A stretch of 64,000 nucleotides of DNA from an uncultured Bacteroidota bacterium (GTDB lineage: Bacteria; Bacteroidota; Bacteroidia; Chitinophagales; Chitinophagaceae). Positions 58,413 to 63,818 of the stretch are shown here, piece after piece. The DNA is taken from contig CAINUN010000016.1 of NCBI GenBank assembly GCA_903853805.1, positions 1-64,000 of the forward strand, read 5' to 3'. The translations under genes and the position numbers were made by a program. The notes beneath the pieces were generated by a model. The model worked only from the letters and a program-made list of their open reading frames with translations. It did no database searches and was not told the origin of the DNA. The stretch's first letter is position 1; the number at the start of each line of letters is the position of its first letter.

Positions 58413-59426
58413 CTATAGCGCTGAAAAACTAGTATCAGATATGTAAGTGTTGTCAGTAAAAGTTTTCAAGAATTGTATAAGTTGGTATTTTTCTTGATCG
58501 GATAGTTTTAGTCCATTCACTTTTCCCGGCTTGGTCATAATAGGGTCGAGATTTGAAACTTTTCTCATACCACTATTGTAAAACTCCACTACTTCTTCTA
58601 AAGACTTATATCGACCGTCATGCATAAAGTAAGAACGCAAGGCAACATTGTGGAGGTTTGCAGTTCTGAATTTCCCCAAATCAAGATTGTTCTTAGTAAC
58701 ATTATAATGTCCTTTGTCTGCTTCTTTATTATACAAACTATCTAAACCTGTATTATGCATTAAATTGTCAGATAGCATAGGATTGGTGTGGCAATGAAAA
58801 CAATCTCCTTTTTCAGTAAAGAAAATTTTCCTTCCCTCTTCTTCATCATTGGTAAGCGATGCTTCTCCTAATAAATATTTATCGTACTTGGAATTTTTGG
58901 AAATCATGGTTCTAGTAAATTGAGCCATGGCATAAGCTAGTTCCTTATAAGTAATCTTATCAACACCGAAGTAAGATTTGAAAAGGGATTTGTATTGAGG
59001 AATATTGTTGATCTTATTGAGGTCTGCTTTAAAAAAATCTTTTACTTCAAAAAACATGAGGTCTTCTAGGGATCCTTTTTGAGAGCCATCCCACATGTAA
59101 TTAGTGTACCAAGCAAGATTTACATGAGGCAATACTGGCATGACGTTTAGATACATGTCTGTCTGAGTAAATCCTAACTGCTGTAGATGACATTGAGCAC
59201 AGTATCTTCCATCGTTAGATAGTTGTGGGTCGTAATAAAGCATTCTCCCCAATTTTATTTTTTCTACACAAGGTTCATTATCCGAAGGAATTACCATGTC
59301 TGGATAAAAAGCTGGCGGTACGATTTTGTAGGGGGTTAATTTAATGAGATTACCATTGTCAGAGCTTTTTTTACATGCTGCAAAACAAACTACAATTAGA
59401 AATAGAATTAACCCAAATCGTTTCAT
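58413..59426 (-). CDS. Di-haem cytochrome c peroxidase-like protein (MbnH/MauG type)
   Basis: A 337-residue lipoprotein (Cys18 in VVCFAACKK) with two c-type haem sites: C76-x2-C79-H80 (CAQCH) and C209-x2-C212-H213 (CFHCH). The fold order matches bacterial cytochrome c peroxidase and MauG. The gene follows an MbnP-like gene by 16 bp. In methanotrophs, MbnH oxidises a Trp of MbnP to kynurenine to make a copper site, so this protein may modify its neighbour. It could also be a plain peroxidase; the proposed role depends on the partner. Confidence 0.85.
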   Translation of the reverse strand: MKRFGLILFLIVVCFAACKKSSDNGNLIKLTPYKIVPPAFYPDMVIPSDNEPCVEKIKLGRMLYYDPQLSNDGRYCAQCHLQQLGFTQTDMYLNVMPVLPHVNLAWYTNYMWDGSQKGSLEDLMFFEVKDFFKADLNKINNIPQYKSLFKSYFGVDKITYKELAYAMAQFTRTMISKNSKYDKYLLGEASLTNDEEEGRKIFFTEKGDCFHCHTNPMLSDNLMHNTGLDSLYNKEADKGHYNVTKNNLDLGKFRTANLHNVALRSYFMHDGRYKSLEEVVEFYNSGMRKVSNLDPIMTKPGKVNGLKLSDQEKYQLIQFLKTFTDNTYISDTSFSAL

Positions 59427-59442
59427 AAATATAATTTCATTA

Positions 59443-60243
59443 TTATTGATAAATATCGAAGGCGTTCATTCCGTTTTCTTTTATCTGCCTCATTTTTGCT
59501 GTATCTCCCATGGTATAATTGTTACCATTTATGTCAAGGCTATACAAATTCGGTGATCTCCACCATTCATTTACATTCATCCTAAAATTAACGACATTCA
59601 CATTACCGGAAATAACTTTAAAGTTCATAGGTCTGTATTCTCCGTATGCAGCGTAACCGTTTGAACCAATGTGCATAGCAAAACCAGATTGGATTTTATG
59701 TGTTGTATTATTTTTCCAGTAACCCTCCATTTTCATAAAATGATAACCACCACCCATACTACTTGGCCATTCCATATTTACATTGTCATTGGTTGCTGGT
59801 AAATAACCATGAATATTACGGTTACTACCAATGCCAATTAAGTATGTGACTTTATCATAACTTCCGGTTGGTATATAAGACAGAATGATGCTATTATTTA
59901 TGTCACGTGCATTAATATACACAATTGTGTCAGCTGTATAATAAGCTTTATCGTTTCGCCAAAATGTAATGTTCGACAGATAGTATTCAAGTTTATAAAG
60001 ACTGAATTTTTCGCCTAAGGTCTTTTCATAGATTAAAGTGTCAAAAACAAGTGGTTTTAACGAAGTAGAAGTGTCGATAATCAATTCGTTCGTATTAGGA
60101 TCAAGTGTTTTATGCGTTAATCTATACTCGGCGTAATGGCTAATATTAATTCTGACAGTACCATTAAGAGGCAATTCATTTTGTTCTTTAGCACAAGAAA
60201 AAAGAAGCATAATGAAGATGGGTGCTAAAAACAATTTTTTCAT
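59443..60243 (-). CDS. MbnP-like copper-binding lipoprotein
   Basis: A 266-residue lipoprotein (Cys17 in LLFSCAKE) of the MbnP family. The hallmark NMEWPSSMGGGYHFMKMEGY is at about residues 156-175: W159 is the candidate Trp that could be converted to kynurenine, H168 follows, and FAMHIGSNG (H191) comes in the later strand. Known MbnP and CorA proteins bind copper through such Trp-derived and His residues; whether this protein binds copper is inference. The gene is first in a two-gene operon with the MbnH-type enzyme and divergent from a Crp/Fnr regulator. Confidence 0.82.
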   Translation of the reverse strand: MKKLFLAPIFIMLLFSCAKEQNELPLNGTVRINISHYAEYRLTHKTLDPNTNELIIDTSTSLKPLVFDTLIYEKTLGEKFSLYKLEYYLSNITFWRNDKAYYTADTIVYINARDINNSIILSYIPTGSYDKVTYLIGIGSNRNIHGYLPATNDNVNMEWPSSMGGGYHFMKMEGYWKNNTTHKIQSGFAMHIGSNGYAAYGEYRPMNFKVISGNVNVVNFRMNVNEWWRSPNLYSLDINGNNYTMGDTAKMRQIKENGMNAFDIYQ

Positions 60244-60331
60244 AGATTACATATTTACTGCCAAATTTAATGAATTATAGAGTTCAACCAACTTAGATTG
60301 TCAAAATAGCAGAAATGACTTAAAGATATTC

Positions 60332-60345
60332 ATGACCGCTGTCAT
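60332..60345. promoter_or_regulatory. Candidate operator palindrome between mbnP-like and crp-like genes
   Basis: ATGAC-CGCT-GTCAT is a perfect 5-bp dyad with a 4-base spacer, similar in layout to sites bound by Fnr/Dnr-type regulators. It lies 44 bp before the TACTTTTG element of the Crp/Fnr gene and 89 bp from the mbnP-like ATG, in the shared divergent region. Confidence 0.4.
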
Positions 60346-60388
60346 ATATCCTATTGATACACGTCAAGGAAAAGAGTGATCATGTGAG

Positions 60389-60396
60389 TACTTTTG
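60389..60396 (+). promoter_or_regulatory. Promoter -7 element of the Crp/Fnr gene
   Basis: TACTTTTG is an exact TAnnTTTG match, 20 bp before the GTG start. Confidence 0.45.
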
Positions 60397-60415
60397 TAAT
60401 AAATATTATTATCCT

Positions 60416-61141
60416 GTGAGAAAGAAATTTACCTTGCAAATGGAGCAAGCTAACTGTGAATTGAATTTCCCAATTATTTTTTCTTGCCTCACAATTGAAG
60501 AAAGGCAGTTGTTCGATGAAAACAAGTCAATATTATTTTTCAAAAAAGGCCAAAATATTTTTCATGAAGGAAATCATCCCGTTGGTTTGTTTTGTTTAGA
60601 TGCTGGGAAGGTAAAAATTGAACATAATGGAGATGAAGGGAAAATGCAAATTGTACGTTTGGCAAAAGTTGGTGACCTAATTGGATATCGCGCTCTTTTT
60701 TGTAATGAAAAATACAATGCTAATGCTGTGGCTTTAGAAGATGCAAGGATTTGTTTTTTCCCAAAAGAAATATTCTTTTATGTTTTAGATAAAAATAATG
60801 GTCTAGCACAAAATATGATCAAACTTCTTGCATCTGACTTAAGGCATGCTGAAGATCACATTACGGAACTTGCACAAAAACCCGTTAGAGAAAGAATGGC
60901 AAAAGCATTGTTGTTTTTAAAGGACACCTATGGTTTTGAGGAAGATAACGCAACCATCAATATATCATTAACTCGGGAAGAAATTGCTGATCTTGTTGGC
61001 ACTGCAACCGAAACATCAATAAGGCTCCTGTCGGAATTAAAACACGATGGTATTATTGAGTTTGTAGGAAGGAAAATAAAAATAATCAGCCTATCAAAGC
61101 TTTATAAAGCTGCACATCAATTTCAATTATCATTCAACTAA
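60416..61141 (+). CDS. Crp/Fnr-family transcriptional regulator
   Basis: A 241-residue regulator. The first codon is GTG at 60416; an ATG at 60440 (MEQANCELNFPIIF) would give 233 residues. The cyclic-nucleotide-type beta-barrel lies at about residues 20-130 (NIFHEGNHPVGLFCLDAGKV), with a long dimerisation helix (KNNGLAQNMIKLLASDLRHA). The winged HTH follows (TREEIADLVGTATETSIRLL, about 189-208). No cluster of Cys typical of Fnr [4Fe-4S] proteins is seen at the N-terminus (only one Cys there). It is divergent from the MbnP/MbnH pair, which it may control. Confidence 0.88.
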   Translation: MRKKFTLQMEQANCELNFPIIFSCLTIEERQLFDENKSILFFKKGQNIFHEGNHPVGLFCLDAGKVKIEHNGDEGKMQIVRLAKVGDLIGYRALFCNEKYNANAVALEDARICFFPKEIFFYVLDKNNGLAQNMIKLLASDLRHAEDHITELAQKPVRERMAKALLFLKDTYGFEEDNATINISLTREEIADLVGTATETSIRLLSELKHDGIIEFVGRKIKIISLSKLYKAAHQFQLSFN

Positions 61142-61186: not shown

Positions 61187-61996
61187 TTATTTCACGTCAA
61201 TTATATTTTCCACTGCTTCAAGCGAAACATCTTCGCCGGCATCAAGCACGCCTTGAGCTGAGTATTTTCCTTTTGGAAAGTCTTTTGGGAGTTCAAAAAT
61301 AACATACCTTTTTTGGTCAGGAAACATTGGAAATTCAACTGGTTCCAATTTTGTTTCTTTTCCGTCAGCCATGGAGTTAAGAATGAGATATGATTTGCAT
61401 TCTACCATGACCTTCCCTGTATTTTGACAAAGTAATTGGAAAGTATTCGTTGTTTTAGGAACAGGTGTTAAGTCAACTACTTTTATAGCTTTTTCAGTGA
61501 TAGCTGGTGGGGTTTGATACACATGGACACCAATTCTTAAAACGTTCCTTACAGCCGCTTGAGTTCCTTTTTCTTTTATGTTTTTCTTTTCTTCTACTGT
61601 TTCAATAAATAGCATTGCCCAACGCATTCGGTCGGTTGAAACACCATCATCAGGCAAAGAAAGTTTTACAGTTACATCCGTTGATTTGCCTGTTTCTAAC
61701 TGAACGAAGTTCTTGTCAAACGTAAGCCATTTAGCACAAGATTGTGGTAATGTATCCGCACGAAAATAGGCATGACCGCCTAATGTATCTCTAAACCAAT
61801 CGTTGATATACAGCCTAAATTGAACAGTATCTGGTGAGTTGTTGGTTAAATGTATTGACTTAGACTCTGATTGTCCTCCTGTTAAATGATATTCAAGAAT
61901 TGTAGGGTAAACACCTAAGTTAGGTTGTGACTTAGCAATAAAAGTAGAAGCAATTAATATTGTAAGGCTGAGCAGAAAAAATTTTGTTTGTTTCAT
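61187..61996 (-). CDS. Periplasmic pilus-chaperone-like protein
   Basis: A 269-residue secreted protein. The ATG is at 61996 (MKQTKFFLLSLTILIASTFI, a signal peptide ending in AKSQ). The mature N-terminus PNLGVYPTILEYHLTGGQSE and SIHLTNNSPDTVQFRLYIND look like the first Ig domain of PapD-type chaperones or of WxL-interacting proteins. A second beta-rich domain (about 170-269) ends in LEAVENIIDVK. No usher gene is in the window. It is divergent (76-bp gap) from three small secreted proteins, and probably helps them fold or assemble; this is context inference. Confidence 0.65.
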   Translation of the reverse strand: MKQTKFFLLSLTILIASTFIAKSQPNLGVYPTILEYHLTGGQSESKSIHLTNNSPDTVQFRLYINDWFRDTLGGHAYFRADTLPQSCAKWLTFDKNFVQLETGKSTDVTVKLSLPDDGVSTDRMRWAMLFIETVEEKKNIKEKGTQAAVRNVLRIGVHVYQTPPAITEKAIKVVDLTPVPKTTNTFQLLCQNTGKVMVECKSYLILNSMADGKETKLEPVEFPMFPDQKRYVIFELPKDFPKGKYSAQGVLDAGEDVSLEAVENIIDVK

Positions 61997-62072
61997 TCTC
62001 AATTAAATAGTTTTGTTACACAAAGAAAAGCAATTTTGTCAATACCCAAATTATCAAGTGAACTATTGAAAG

Positions 62073-62555
62073 ATGAATACAATAATTAGACTTTGTTTGT
62101 TACTATTATTGTGTATAAACGCACATTCTCAAAACCAGTCCAATTATATTCAAATCAACTTAAATAGCACTTTAAACTTTCTCATCACAAGCCCAAACAA
62201 TATTGAGTCTGACCAGACTATTCAGAATGCATTAACCATTCAAGTTATGAGCAAGGCAAGCAATTGCAGCATTTATGCGCGATTGAATAACTTAACTTAC
62301 CCATCAGGATTTACTGTACCTTCTCCATTTTTGAAAATTGATTGGACTAATGACAACAGCAATAAGGACTATAATTTAATTACTGCGCCAATTGCATTAA
62401 ATAGTACTGATCAACTTCTTTTTAGCCAAAAAAAAATGCCTAGCGCCTCTAATTATTATAGCTACTACTACAACCTAATTTTGTCTCCGCCAACTTATGC
62501 TTTAGTGCCAGGGAGTTATAGTTTCAATATCCTATTTACAATGACACAGCCTTGA
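62073..62555 (+). CDS. Small secreted beta-rich protein 1
   Basis: A 160-residue protein with signal peptide MNTIIRLCLLLLLCINAHSQ. The mature part is Asn/Ser/Thr-rich with alternating hydrophobic strands and ends in PGSYSFNILFTMTQP. This last strand closely resembles the ends of the two next proteins (YS-x-I/V-x-YT-x-TPQ), so the three appear to be distant members of one family. The TGA stop overlaps the TTG start of the following gene in TTGA, which suggests translational coupling. No T9SS tail is present. A pilin-like or matrix subunit is possible. Confidence 0.65.
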   Translation: MNTIIRLCLLLLLCINAHSQNQSNYIQINLNSTLNFLITSPNNIESDQTIQNALTIQVMSKASNCSIYARLNNLTYPSGFTVPSPFLKIDWTNDNSNKDYNLITAPIALNSTDQLLFSQKKMPSASNYYSYYYNLILSPPTYALVPGSYSFNILFTMTQP

Positions 62556-63052
62556 AAAGATTATTGTCCATACTTGTTTTATTTTTTTCAGCTACTACAG
62601 TAGTTGCTCAATATTCCTTTTCTGGAAACGCAAATGGTACAATTAGTGTTTCAGCAATTCAGTCTATTTCCATTATTGGAGGCACAACGATCCCTAGTCT
62701 TTCTTCCCTCGACGATTATTTTAATGGCGTTGTGATGAGTAATTATGTTACAGCGACTATTAAAAGCAATGTTTCTTGGGTTGTGGTAGTTCAAGCTCAA
62801 AACAACTATTTTACGGCAATGTCATCAGGGGCAAGTACAAATATGCCAGCAAGTGTGCTAAGCTTAAAAACATCTTCTAGTGGAACTTACCTCTCCTTGA
62901 ACACAAATGGTATTAACTTGAAAACAGGAAACAAAACAGGCAATTCAATTTCGGGCACTAATTTCAATGTGGACATGAAATTCAATCCAGGGTTCAATTT
63001 TAAAGGAGGCATCTACTCTATTGCACTTTTATACACCCTTACTCCTCAGTAA
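62552..63052 (+). CDS. Small secreted beta-rich protein 2
   Basis: A 166-residue protein with signal peptide (LLSILVLFFSATTVVAQ). It begins with TTG, overlapping the previous stop. The mature region contains SNYVTATIKSNVSWVVVVQA and SVLSLKTSSSGTYLSLNT, and ends FNPGFNFKGGIYSIALLYTL-TPQ, strongly resembling the third protein (ATPGFNSPSGTYSTDVIYTA). Length and strand pattern fit a single Ig-like or pilin-like beta sandwich. No Cys. Function is unknown; it is most likely a subunit or substrate of the chaperone-like protein. Confidence 0.65.
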   Translation: MKRLLSILVLFFSATTVVAQYSFSGNANGTISVSAIQSISIIGGTTIPSLSSLDDYFNGVVMSNYVTATIKSNVSWVVVVQAQNNYFTAMSSGASTNMPASVLSLKTSSSGTYLSLNTNGINLKTGNKTGNSISGTNFNVDMKFNPGFNFKGGIYSIALLYTLTPQ

Positions 63053-63079
63053 TATTCTCAAAGGATTTTCTAATGATTA

Positions 63080-63107
63080 GTTAACTGACTGCAAAAAAAC
63101 AGTTAAC
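63080..63107. repeat. Inverted repeat in the leader of the third secreted protein gene
   Basis: GTTAACTG and CAGTTAAC form an 8-bp dyad around a 12-base A-rich spacer. It lies 28 bp after the stop at 63052. There is no T run on the plus strand, so it may be an operator or RNA hairpin rather than a terminator. Confidence 0.5.
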
Positions 63108-63260
63108 CCTTTCTATTTGTTTGAAGCAGGTGAAATCTTATTTCATCTTTGTGTCATCAAAGTAAAACAAAAACTCCGAAAGGGTTTAAAACAAAACAAA
63201 GACACACTAACAAAACAGCTCGCCAAAGTCTATGATTCAACGAGCAAACAAAACAAAACA

Positions 63261-63818
63261 ATGAAGAAACTTCTTTTAATCGCAGCAGTTGCAATTGGTT
63301 TTCAAACAGCAATATTTGCTCAAAGCAATGCTTCTGGTACCGCACAACAAAATGTGCAACTTGCTTTAAGTAATGCTCTTGAAATCAAATTTAATAGCAA
63401 CAACAGCACTACAGGTCCTACTGTAACACTTCCTTTCAATTCAGTTACTGATTTTCAAAATGGTGTTATTAGTAGCGATATTGACTTATATGTTCGTTCC
63501 AACAAAAACTTTACTGTTACTGTAAACAGTTCTTCTAATCAATTTACTTACACTGGTTCCGCTTCACAAAACACAACCATGTCAGTACCTAGTGTTCTTG
63601 GAATCATGGTAACATCCAATAACACTGGAGGTTCTATTGGAAACAATTTTAGCTCAAACAGTTTTAACAACATCAATTCAAACTCAAAAACACTCTTTCA
63701 AAACTGTACTTATGGTGGCAATCAAAACTTCACTATTAAGTATAAAGCTACTCCTGGATTTAATAGTCCTTCGGGTACTTATTCAACCGACGTCATTTAT
63801 ACTGCAACGCAGCAATAA
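63261..63818 (+). CDS. Small secreted beta-rich protein 3
   Basis: A 185-residue protein. I use the ATG at 63261 (MKKLLLIAAVAIGFQTAIFA, signal peptide); an upstream TTG extension is not convincing. The mature protein is Ser/Asn/Thr-rich with one Cys (FQNCTYGG) and repeats strand signals such as SSDIDLYVRSNKNFTVTVNS and SVLGIMVTSNNTGGSIGNNF. The ending NSPSGTYSTDVIYTATQQ matches protein 2. It lies 208 bp after the previous gene, so its own promoter is likely (CATCTTTG at 63144-63151 is one base off TAnnTTTG). Confidence 0.68.
   Translation: MKKLLLIAAVAIGFQTAIFAQSNASGTAQQNVQLALSNALEIKFNSNNSTTGPTVTLPFNSVTDFQNGVISSDIDLYVRSNKNFTVTVNSSSNQFTYTGSASQNTTMSVPSVLGIMVTSNNTGGSIGNNFSSNSFNNINSNSKTLFQNCTYGGNQNFTIKYKATPGFNSPSGTYSTDVIYTATQQ

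Follow-up and report, generated by a model that had tools for sequence, protein, structure and literature searches.

Does a pair of genes on a Bacteroidota contig encode a system that builds a copper site, and what would such a site serve? The pair lies in the 64,000-nucleotide stretch analyzed here (the window; contig CAINUN010000016.1, positions 1 to 64,000). It consists of a gene for an MbnP-family lipoprotein and, 16 bp downstream on the same strand, a gene for a di-haem protein related to MbnH; a gene for a Crp/Fnr-family regulator is divergent from both. An earlier note on this DNA had proposed an MbnP/MbnH-like pair under copper-responsive or oxygen-responsive control. Its three open reading frames, with their strands, coordinates and the 16-bp gap, agree with ours (Table 1), and we found W159 together with six His residues in the lipoprotein and both CxxCH sites in the di-haem protein. 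The reading that we favor, with modest confidence, is that this divergent Bacteroidota pair is a membrane-anchored copper-site system under Fnr-type control, serving copper respiration at low oxygen (NosZ and the cbb3 oxidase).

The MbnP-like protein and its di-haem partner

The lipoprotein matched the Pfam family MbnP (PF20243) with 88.4 bits (gathering cut-off 27), and the di-haem protein matched CCP_MauG (PF03150) with 108.4 bits (cut-off 25.6). The NCBIfam cut-offs were missed by both. The sole NCBIfam match of the lipoprotein was TIGR04052 (MbnP_like_WxW), at 22.7 bits against a cut-off of 140; the best match of the enzyme was the MbnH equivalog TIGR04039, at 184.3 bits against 362.85, and TTQ_mauG was likewise missed (131 bits against 443.85). 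Equivalog scores so far under their cut-offs for both partners were the first sign of a divergent group.

In a fold comparison, the AlphaFold2 (AF2) model of the lipoprotein, with a predicted local distance difference test score (pLDDT) of 92.9, matched MbnP of Methylosinus trichosporium (7l6g) with a Z score of 15.2 and a root-mean-square deviation (rmsd) of 3.4 over 203 aligned residues; the next among the matches listed had a Z score of 5.1. Foldseek gave template modeling (TM) scores of 0.40-0.48. The lipoprotein is thus predicted to have the MbnP fold. Sequence searches of the PDB returned no match for the MbnP of the window and only chance matches for a second MbnP of the same genome; the link to 7l6g was obtained through the fold comparison and through a Methylocystis MbnP. 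CorA and MopE were not among the fold matches listed, an absence that does not exclude that fold. The model of the enzyme (pLDDT 92.1) matched MbnH (6e1c) with a Z score of 34.4, an rmsd of 1.9 over 300 aligned residues and 33% identity, followed among the matches listed by a Z score of 26.9; its predicted fold is that of MbnH.

A scan of genome contigs with an alignment of the window type yielded 262 relatives. The best 80 of these, fetched by patterns containing the GYH..K.E or NEW motif, are our clade loci, and with the window they provide 81 MbnP sequences. Their titles name Bacteroidota groups, except for L085 ('bacterium' only) and L038. The latter is titled Azovibrio restrictus and has the same crp-mbnP-CCP order as L037, titled Bacteroides; L038 is probably a misnamed bin.

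We calculated a midpoint-rooted tree of 56 MbnPs: 35 from the clade (every second row), 18 of the 21 Bacteroidota MbnPs outside it, all with a WxW motif (L024, L026 and L033 were left out), and those of Methylocystis, Pseudoalteromonas and Trichormus. The window type was separated with support of 100/99. The 18 other Bacteroidota sequences did not form one group (2 changes) and were united in 18% of the bootstrap trees. Judged by these sequences, the window pair represents a separate, well-supported Bacteroidota clade and is not a standard MbnPH pair.

The enzyme gene adjoins mbnP in 79 of the 80 loci, lying upstream of it in two, and in 28 of the 30 loci of an earlier set; the two genes that the earlier note had joined are therefore conserved together in other genomes. 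Two exceptions, L068 and L015, encode a relative of the enzyme at another genomic position, and the third, L024, falls outside the clade. The lipoboxes that had been seen on both window partners extend across the clade: the lipobox Cys (C17 in the MbnP-like protein, C18 in the enzyme) is invariant in 70/70 aligned members. The two alignments used for this, A3 and A4, hold 69 of 80 and 69 of 79 loci, respectively, each with the window added and with incomplete or near-identical rows dropped. Lipids would anchor both members of the pair in a membrane.

For the residues that might be modified, we ran profile alignments of the window type against the 18 Bacteroidota WxW proteins and against the three MbnPs named above. 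At the WxW site the second pair of the genome reads MYWTWQSGY, while the window protein reads MEWPSSMGGGYHF. In these alignments W159 falls on the first Trp, a Ser lies near the second, and H191 aligns with the His of the HxG motif. What had been described as an MbnP-type Trp motif is hence half of one: its first Trp is kept and its second is replaced. Ten residues are invariant in 81/81 sequences: W159, P160, G166, Y167, H168, K171, E173, G174, H191 and G193. The invariance of H168, as of W227, is partly built in because the patterns that selected the loci contain the GYH..K.E or NEW motif; W159 and H191 stand outside these patterns.

By analogy with MbnP, MopE and CorA, the di-haem enzyme would oxidize its partner, most likely at W159, to kynurenine, and the oxidized W159 would then form a copper site with His168 and His191. 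In CorA, the copper is surrounded by a kynurenine and two His (PMC3912023); MopE and the MbnP/MbnH pair are the other close precedents (PMC3621798). What the window pair shares with CorA/CorB of Methylomicrobium album and MopE/SACCP of Methylococcus capsulatus is the idea of a kynurenine-His-His copper site encoded beside a di-haem enzyme gene. The residue spacing in CorA (Kyn62, H64, H114) differs from that in the window protein (W159, H168, H191).

The host genome encodes a second, WxW-bearing MbnP/CCP pair (locus L005, 7278-9007; contig 100 of G000). Its enzyme keeps the usual distal triad, and no Crp/Fnr dyad lies within 200 bp of it. Bacteroidota WxW pairs such as this one share the phylum, gene order and pairing with the window type; they differ in retaining WxW and the triad, in falling outside the clade in the tree and in having the dyad described below in 1/21 cases. 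A YHYH-domain protein of the type IX secretion system (T9SS) adjoins the second pair. A plasmid search with the second MbnP gave no match. Several stretches in the plasmid collection that match the di-haem enzyme are named 'methanobactin export MATE transporter MbnM', and the same product name is attached to a di-haem gene adjoining an MbnP at L118 (2884-4035), where it looks wrong.

Crp/Fnr-type dyads upstream of the pair

Operators of the Crp/Fnr type have a 5-4-5 dyad layout. Two such dyads lie between mbnP and the regulator gene (Table 1) and would together form a tandem operator. Across the clade, TGA-N6-TCA occurs in 62 of the 81 upstream regions (up to 250 bp), whereas 200 first-order Markov shuffles gave 6.6 on average and never more than 15; a perfect 5-4-5 dyad is present in 23 of the 81, against 0.6 in shuffles. 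At seven loci (L037, L061, L067, L070, L089, L097, L110) the mbnP start is wrong or the gene is cut, and without them the count is 58/74. The position is also preferred: a dyad is found at -35 to -85 in 50/80 clade mbnP genes versus 32/271 other genes of the same loci. Outside the clade it precedes one of 21 mbnP genes, a set in which L025 was counted by its WTW motif and which includes L024, although that sequence lacks WxW. On the tree, the dyad label requires 12 changes.

Of the loci retrieved by the DNA motif (L120-L133), 13 have a complete upstream sequence (L123 being cut), and 10 of these carry the dyad. The set is not independent, since seven members duplicate the window or clade loci; the six that were new to the analysis all have it (6/6). 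At L122, where the gene order is reversed, the dyad is located 5' of the enzyme gene. Beyond mbnP, dyads precede 7/10 nos-type cytochromes c and 9/11 Rrf2 genes.

The host genome contains 14 instances of the exact tandem layout, as opposed to one of a reversed-pattern control. Besides mbnP/crp, tandem sites precede ccoN of the cbb3 oxidase, two cytochromes c of the nos cluster, a second Crp/Fnr gene, a further cytochrome c, NuoA/ferredoxin and a subunit of an anaerobic CoA-reductase. The remaining sites precede small unknown proteins, a CpsB-like protein and a GH3 enzyme, and one lies inside a reading frame of 271 codons; no connection of these to respiration is apparent. The host nos cluster contains NosZ, NosD, an ABC ATPase, two cytochromes c, Rrf2 and RIC. 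Near it, under a tandem operator, is a homologue of benzoyl-CoA reductase subunit C (L150, 239-1411; 443 bits, over the cut-off). Small proteins of about 160 aa without a Pfam match stand under the tandem operator at L153 (1599-2084) and L162 (1594-2076), and one of similar size occurs at L154.

The regulator missed the cut-off of the Fnr family NF008365 in NCBIfam (80.8 bits against 228), and by its domains we place it in the Crp/Fnr superfamily only. Its nearest relatives found (50-52% identity; L037, L038 and L148) adjoin clade pairs or lie in a nos/nor island. These nearest relatives have an N-terminal CxxC...C arrangement; in the window protein two of its three Cys are present, and one of the two is displaced by one position. 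A Crp/Fnr gene is present within about 4 kb in only 12/80 loci; therefore, the dyad and not adjacency carries the argument. Control by a regulator of this type, as the earlier note had suggested, is supported by the binding sites. Oxygen or N-oxides, rather than copper, would be the signal because of the genes that share Crp/Fnr-type dyads, and for the copper-responsive role that had also been proposed we found no evidence in the clade loci or the host genome. We infer that a Crp/Fnr regulator acts at the tandem dyads of the shared intergenic region and would switch the pair on when oxygen is low or N-oxides are present.

The distal pocket of the enzyme

We aligned 70 clade enzymes with three MbnH relatives and 20 other Bacteroidota enzymes. 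Tyr283, at the axial position, is present in 70/70 clade enzymes and lies opposite a Met of the Nitrosomonas peroxidase; Tyr is predicted to replace Met as the axial ligand. A Trp at what we take to be the inter-haem position is likewise kept in 70/70. The distal pocket is different. Gln, Pro and Glu of the distal triad occur in 1, 0 and 0 of the 70 clade enzymes, compared to 18, 19 and 20 of the 20 other Bacteroidota enzymes and all three MbnH relatives. The distal loop of the clade enzymes is shortened, typically to [DE]FF, and an acid directly precedes the FF pair in 55/69; a shifted acid may therefore stand in.

The same pocket bears on whether the enzyme is instead a lipid-anchored cytochrome c peroxidase acting against H2O2 that forms at low oxygen, with the MbnP-like protein as a docking or redox partner that carries neither kynurenine nor copper. 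Membership in the CCP_MauG family fits this, and induction of cytochrome c peroxidases by Fnr is classical. However, Tyr283 replaces the peroxidase Met throughout the clade, the triad linked to peroxide chemistry is lost, MbnH is the best fold match by a wide margin, and the partner has W159, H168 and H191 in all 81 sequences. We consider this explanation very improbable. A plain bacterial cytochrome c peroxidase (bCCP) was rejected mainly on Tyr283 and the ranking of the folds.

In work on BthA, the triad is described as conserved in bCCPs, MauG and BthA, its Glu as needed for peroxide turnover and the bis-Fe(IV) state, and the Tyr that corresponds to Tyr283 is tied to bis-Fe(IV) chemistry (PMC6405878). 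The clade poses the question whether a MauG-like enzyme remains functional when the distal triad is gone. With MauG itself, which matures tryptophan tryptophylquinone, the window enzyme shares the axial-position Tyr and the fold (Z about 26); it differs in scoring under the TTQ_mauG cut-off and in not keeping the triad.

An enzyme with a rebuilt distal pocket might also modify its partner in a way unlike MbnH, at another residue, to another product or with another oxidant. The triad is lost throughout the sampled clade, the partner has lost the second Trp and gained the invariant His168, and nor/nos genes are co-located in part of the loci, all of which would suit such a change; on the other side, Tyr283 and the inter-haem Trp are kept in 70/70, and a nearby acid is often retained. 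This seems to us improbable. A related and bolder proposal is that the clade constitutes a second type of kynurenine-copper system, hitherto undescribed: a lipid-anchored pair under Fnr-type regulation that makes a copper-supply protein for NosZ in Bacteroidota, with an enzyme that lacks the peroxide-activating triad and maybe uses an oxidant from denitrification in place of H2O2. We offer it tentatively and regard it as rather doubtful.

The relationship to MbnP and MbnH put forward in the earlier note thus holds for the Pfam profiles, the predicted folds and the strict pairing, and does not extend to the equivalog cut-offs, a complete WxW or the distal triad. Membership in the standard MbnPH group was rejected on these last three. 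Compared to MbnP/MbnH of M. trichosporium OB3b (7l6g, 6e1c), the window pair has the predicted fold of both partners and the gene order in common and, as seen through the Methylocystis, Pseudoalteromonas and Trichormus relatives, the axial-position Tyr, the first Trp of WxW and the HxG His. It differs in having a single Trp where the others have WxW, in lacking the NHxN His, in the new His168 of GGGYH, in the replaced triad and in the lipoprotein nature of both partners. The surroundings also differ: a Crp/Fnr-type dyad and, in part, a nor/nos context take the place of methanobactin operons. In one study, homologues of a copper-responsive upstream reading frame are reported to head operons that contain MbnPH-like genes (PMC9426467).

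Respiratory genes near the pair and in the host genome

Of the 80 loci, 7 have NosZ within about 4 kb of the pair, 20 a NorB-like gene, 11 Rrf2 and 5 MoaA. The NorB name is based on one representative, whose best PDB match was a nitric oxide reductase (78.7 bits) followed by a cytochrome oxidase (51.2 bits); in NCBIfam, five NorB-like representatives matched ccoN only weakly or had no match. In genomes G221 and G373, the pair lies within stretches of about 20 kb that hold nos and nor genes, with a hemN gene divergent from mbnP. The G221 stretch also encodes a Crp/Fnr protein with 50% identity to that of the window.

We surveyed 396 genomes of the order for NosZ and obtained 187 matches (172 strong, 15 weak). 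A strong match was present in 12 of the 14 genomes with the clade motif and in 160 of the 382 without it (Fisher P 0.0015, kinship ignored); when only matches over the family cut-off were counted, the numbers were 10/14 and 158/382 (P 0.030, kinship likewise ignored). With the marker pattern used in this survey, the number of clade genomes is a minimum.

The enzyme known for removing N2O, a strong greenhouse gas, is NosZ; to our knowledge, little has been established on how copper reaches it in Bacteroidota. Among the papers listed by a literature search that left most subscription papers outside, we found none tying MbnPH to N2O reduction or pairing MbnH with nosZ, and no use of the term 'Metallo-mystery pair'. 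A conserved candidate copper protein, apparently under the same control and in some genomes encoded beside nosZ and NorB-like genes, would be a directly testable missing part. The protein would gather copper or hand it over while the cell builds N2O reductase and the cbb3 oxidase, a role that we reason from the common regulon and the partly common islands.

Several observations weigh against this interpretation. On the chemistry, the distal triad is missing from its usual place, and W159 would not be the equivalent residue if, in M. trichosporium MbnP, kynurenine forms from the second Trp of WxW. On the regulation, a dyad was found within 200 bp in only 5/10 clade loci of the earlier set. It lies directly upstream of nosZ in 0/7 cases and of NorB-like genes in 1/13, these genes being mostly inside gene runs, and it precedes 57/252 unrelated genes at these loci. 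The host genome shows no excess of the strict single dyad WTGACNNNNGTCAW (22 versus 23 in the control), which is why the argument uses the tandem layout and the comparative footprint alone. On the company of the pair, only a minority of loci (7/80) have NosZ within about 4 kb, the host nos genes are on another contig and not near the pair, and two of the 14 clade genomes have no NosZ match. The dyad and co-occurrence tests, moreover, ignore the relatedness of the genomes.

Some of these points would suit a copper-site system of a general micro-oxic response, mainly for cbb3 or for storage, in which the link to N2O is shared Crp/Fnr regulation only. The tandem site in front of ccoN in the host genome agrees with that explanation, as do the two clade genomes without NosZ. 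The ten larger window genes checked on one side of the pair point the same way, since they include housekeeping genes and no denitrification genes. Against it stands the repeated physical linkage of the pair to nosZ and NorB-like genes in several arrangements (clusters L145-L149): on a tree of 70 rows, the NosZ label (7 rows) requires 4 changes, gains or losses, and the NorB-like label (17 rows) requires 11. We regard the general micro-oxic role as possible, though on the unlikely side, and continue to favor copper supply to NosZ and cbb3. NirK, which exceeds the cut-off in 5/14 clade genomes and not in the host, was rejected as the copper client; the same distribution would be compatible with the general response.

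At L021 (contig 86 of G017), about 5.6 kb separate NosZ from a WxW-type MbnP/CCP pair; a link to N2O reduction may therefore reach beyond the divergent clade.

Table 1. Features of the window at and around the MbnP-like pair
Feature	Position	Strand	Basis and details
MbnH/MauG-like di-haem lipoprotein, 337 aa	58413..59426	-	PF03150, predicted model; CxxCH sites beginning at residues 76 and 209, W112, Tyr283
16-bp gap between the mbnP-like and di-haem genes	59427..59442		operon-like arrangement
MbnP-family lipoprotein, 266 aa	59443..60243	-	PF20243, AF2 model, conservation; lipobox Cys17
Perfect 14-bp dyad ATGAC-N4-GTCAT, ATGACCGCTGTCAT	60332..60345		Crp/Fnr 5-4-5 layout; center ~95 bp 5' of the mbnP start
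Second dyad, TTGATACACGTCAA	60354..60367		one arm-to-arm mismatch; center 22 bp from that of the first dyad
Crp/Fnr-family regulator, divergent from the pair	60416..61141	+	PF00027 (cNMP-binding) and PF13545 (HTH_Crp_2)

Elsewhere in the window, an exported-looking protein that matches no Pfam or NCBIfam family is encoded at 61187-62002. It stands beside a run of three small exported-looking proteins at 62073-63818.

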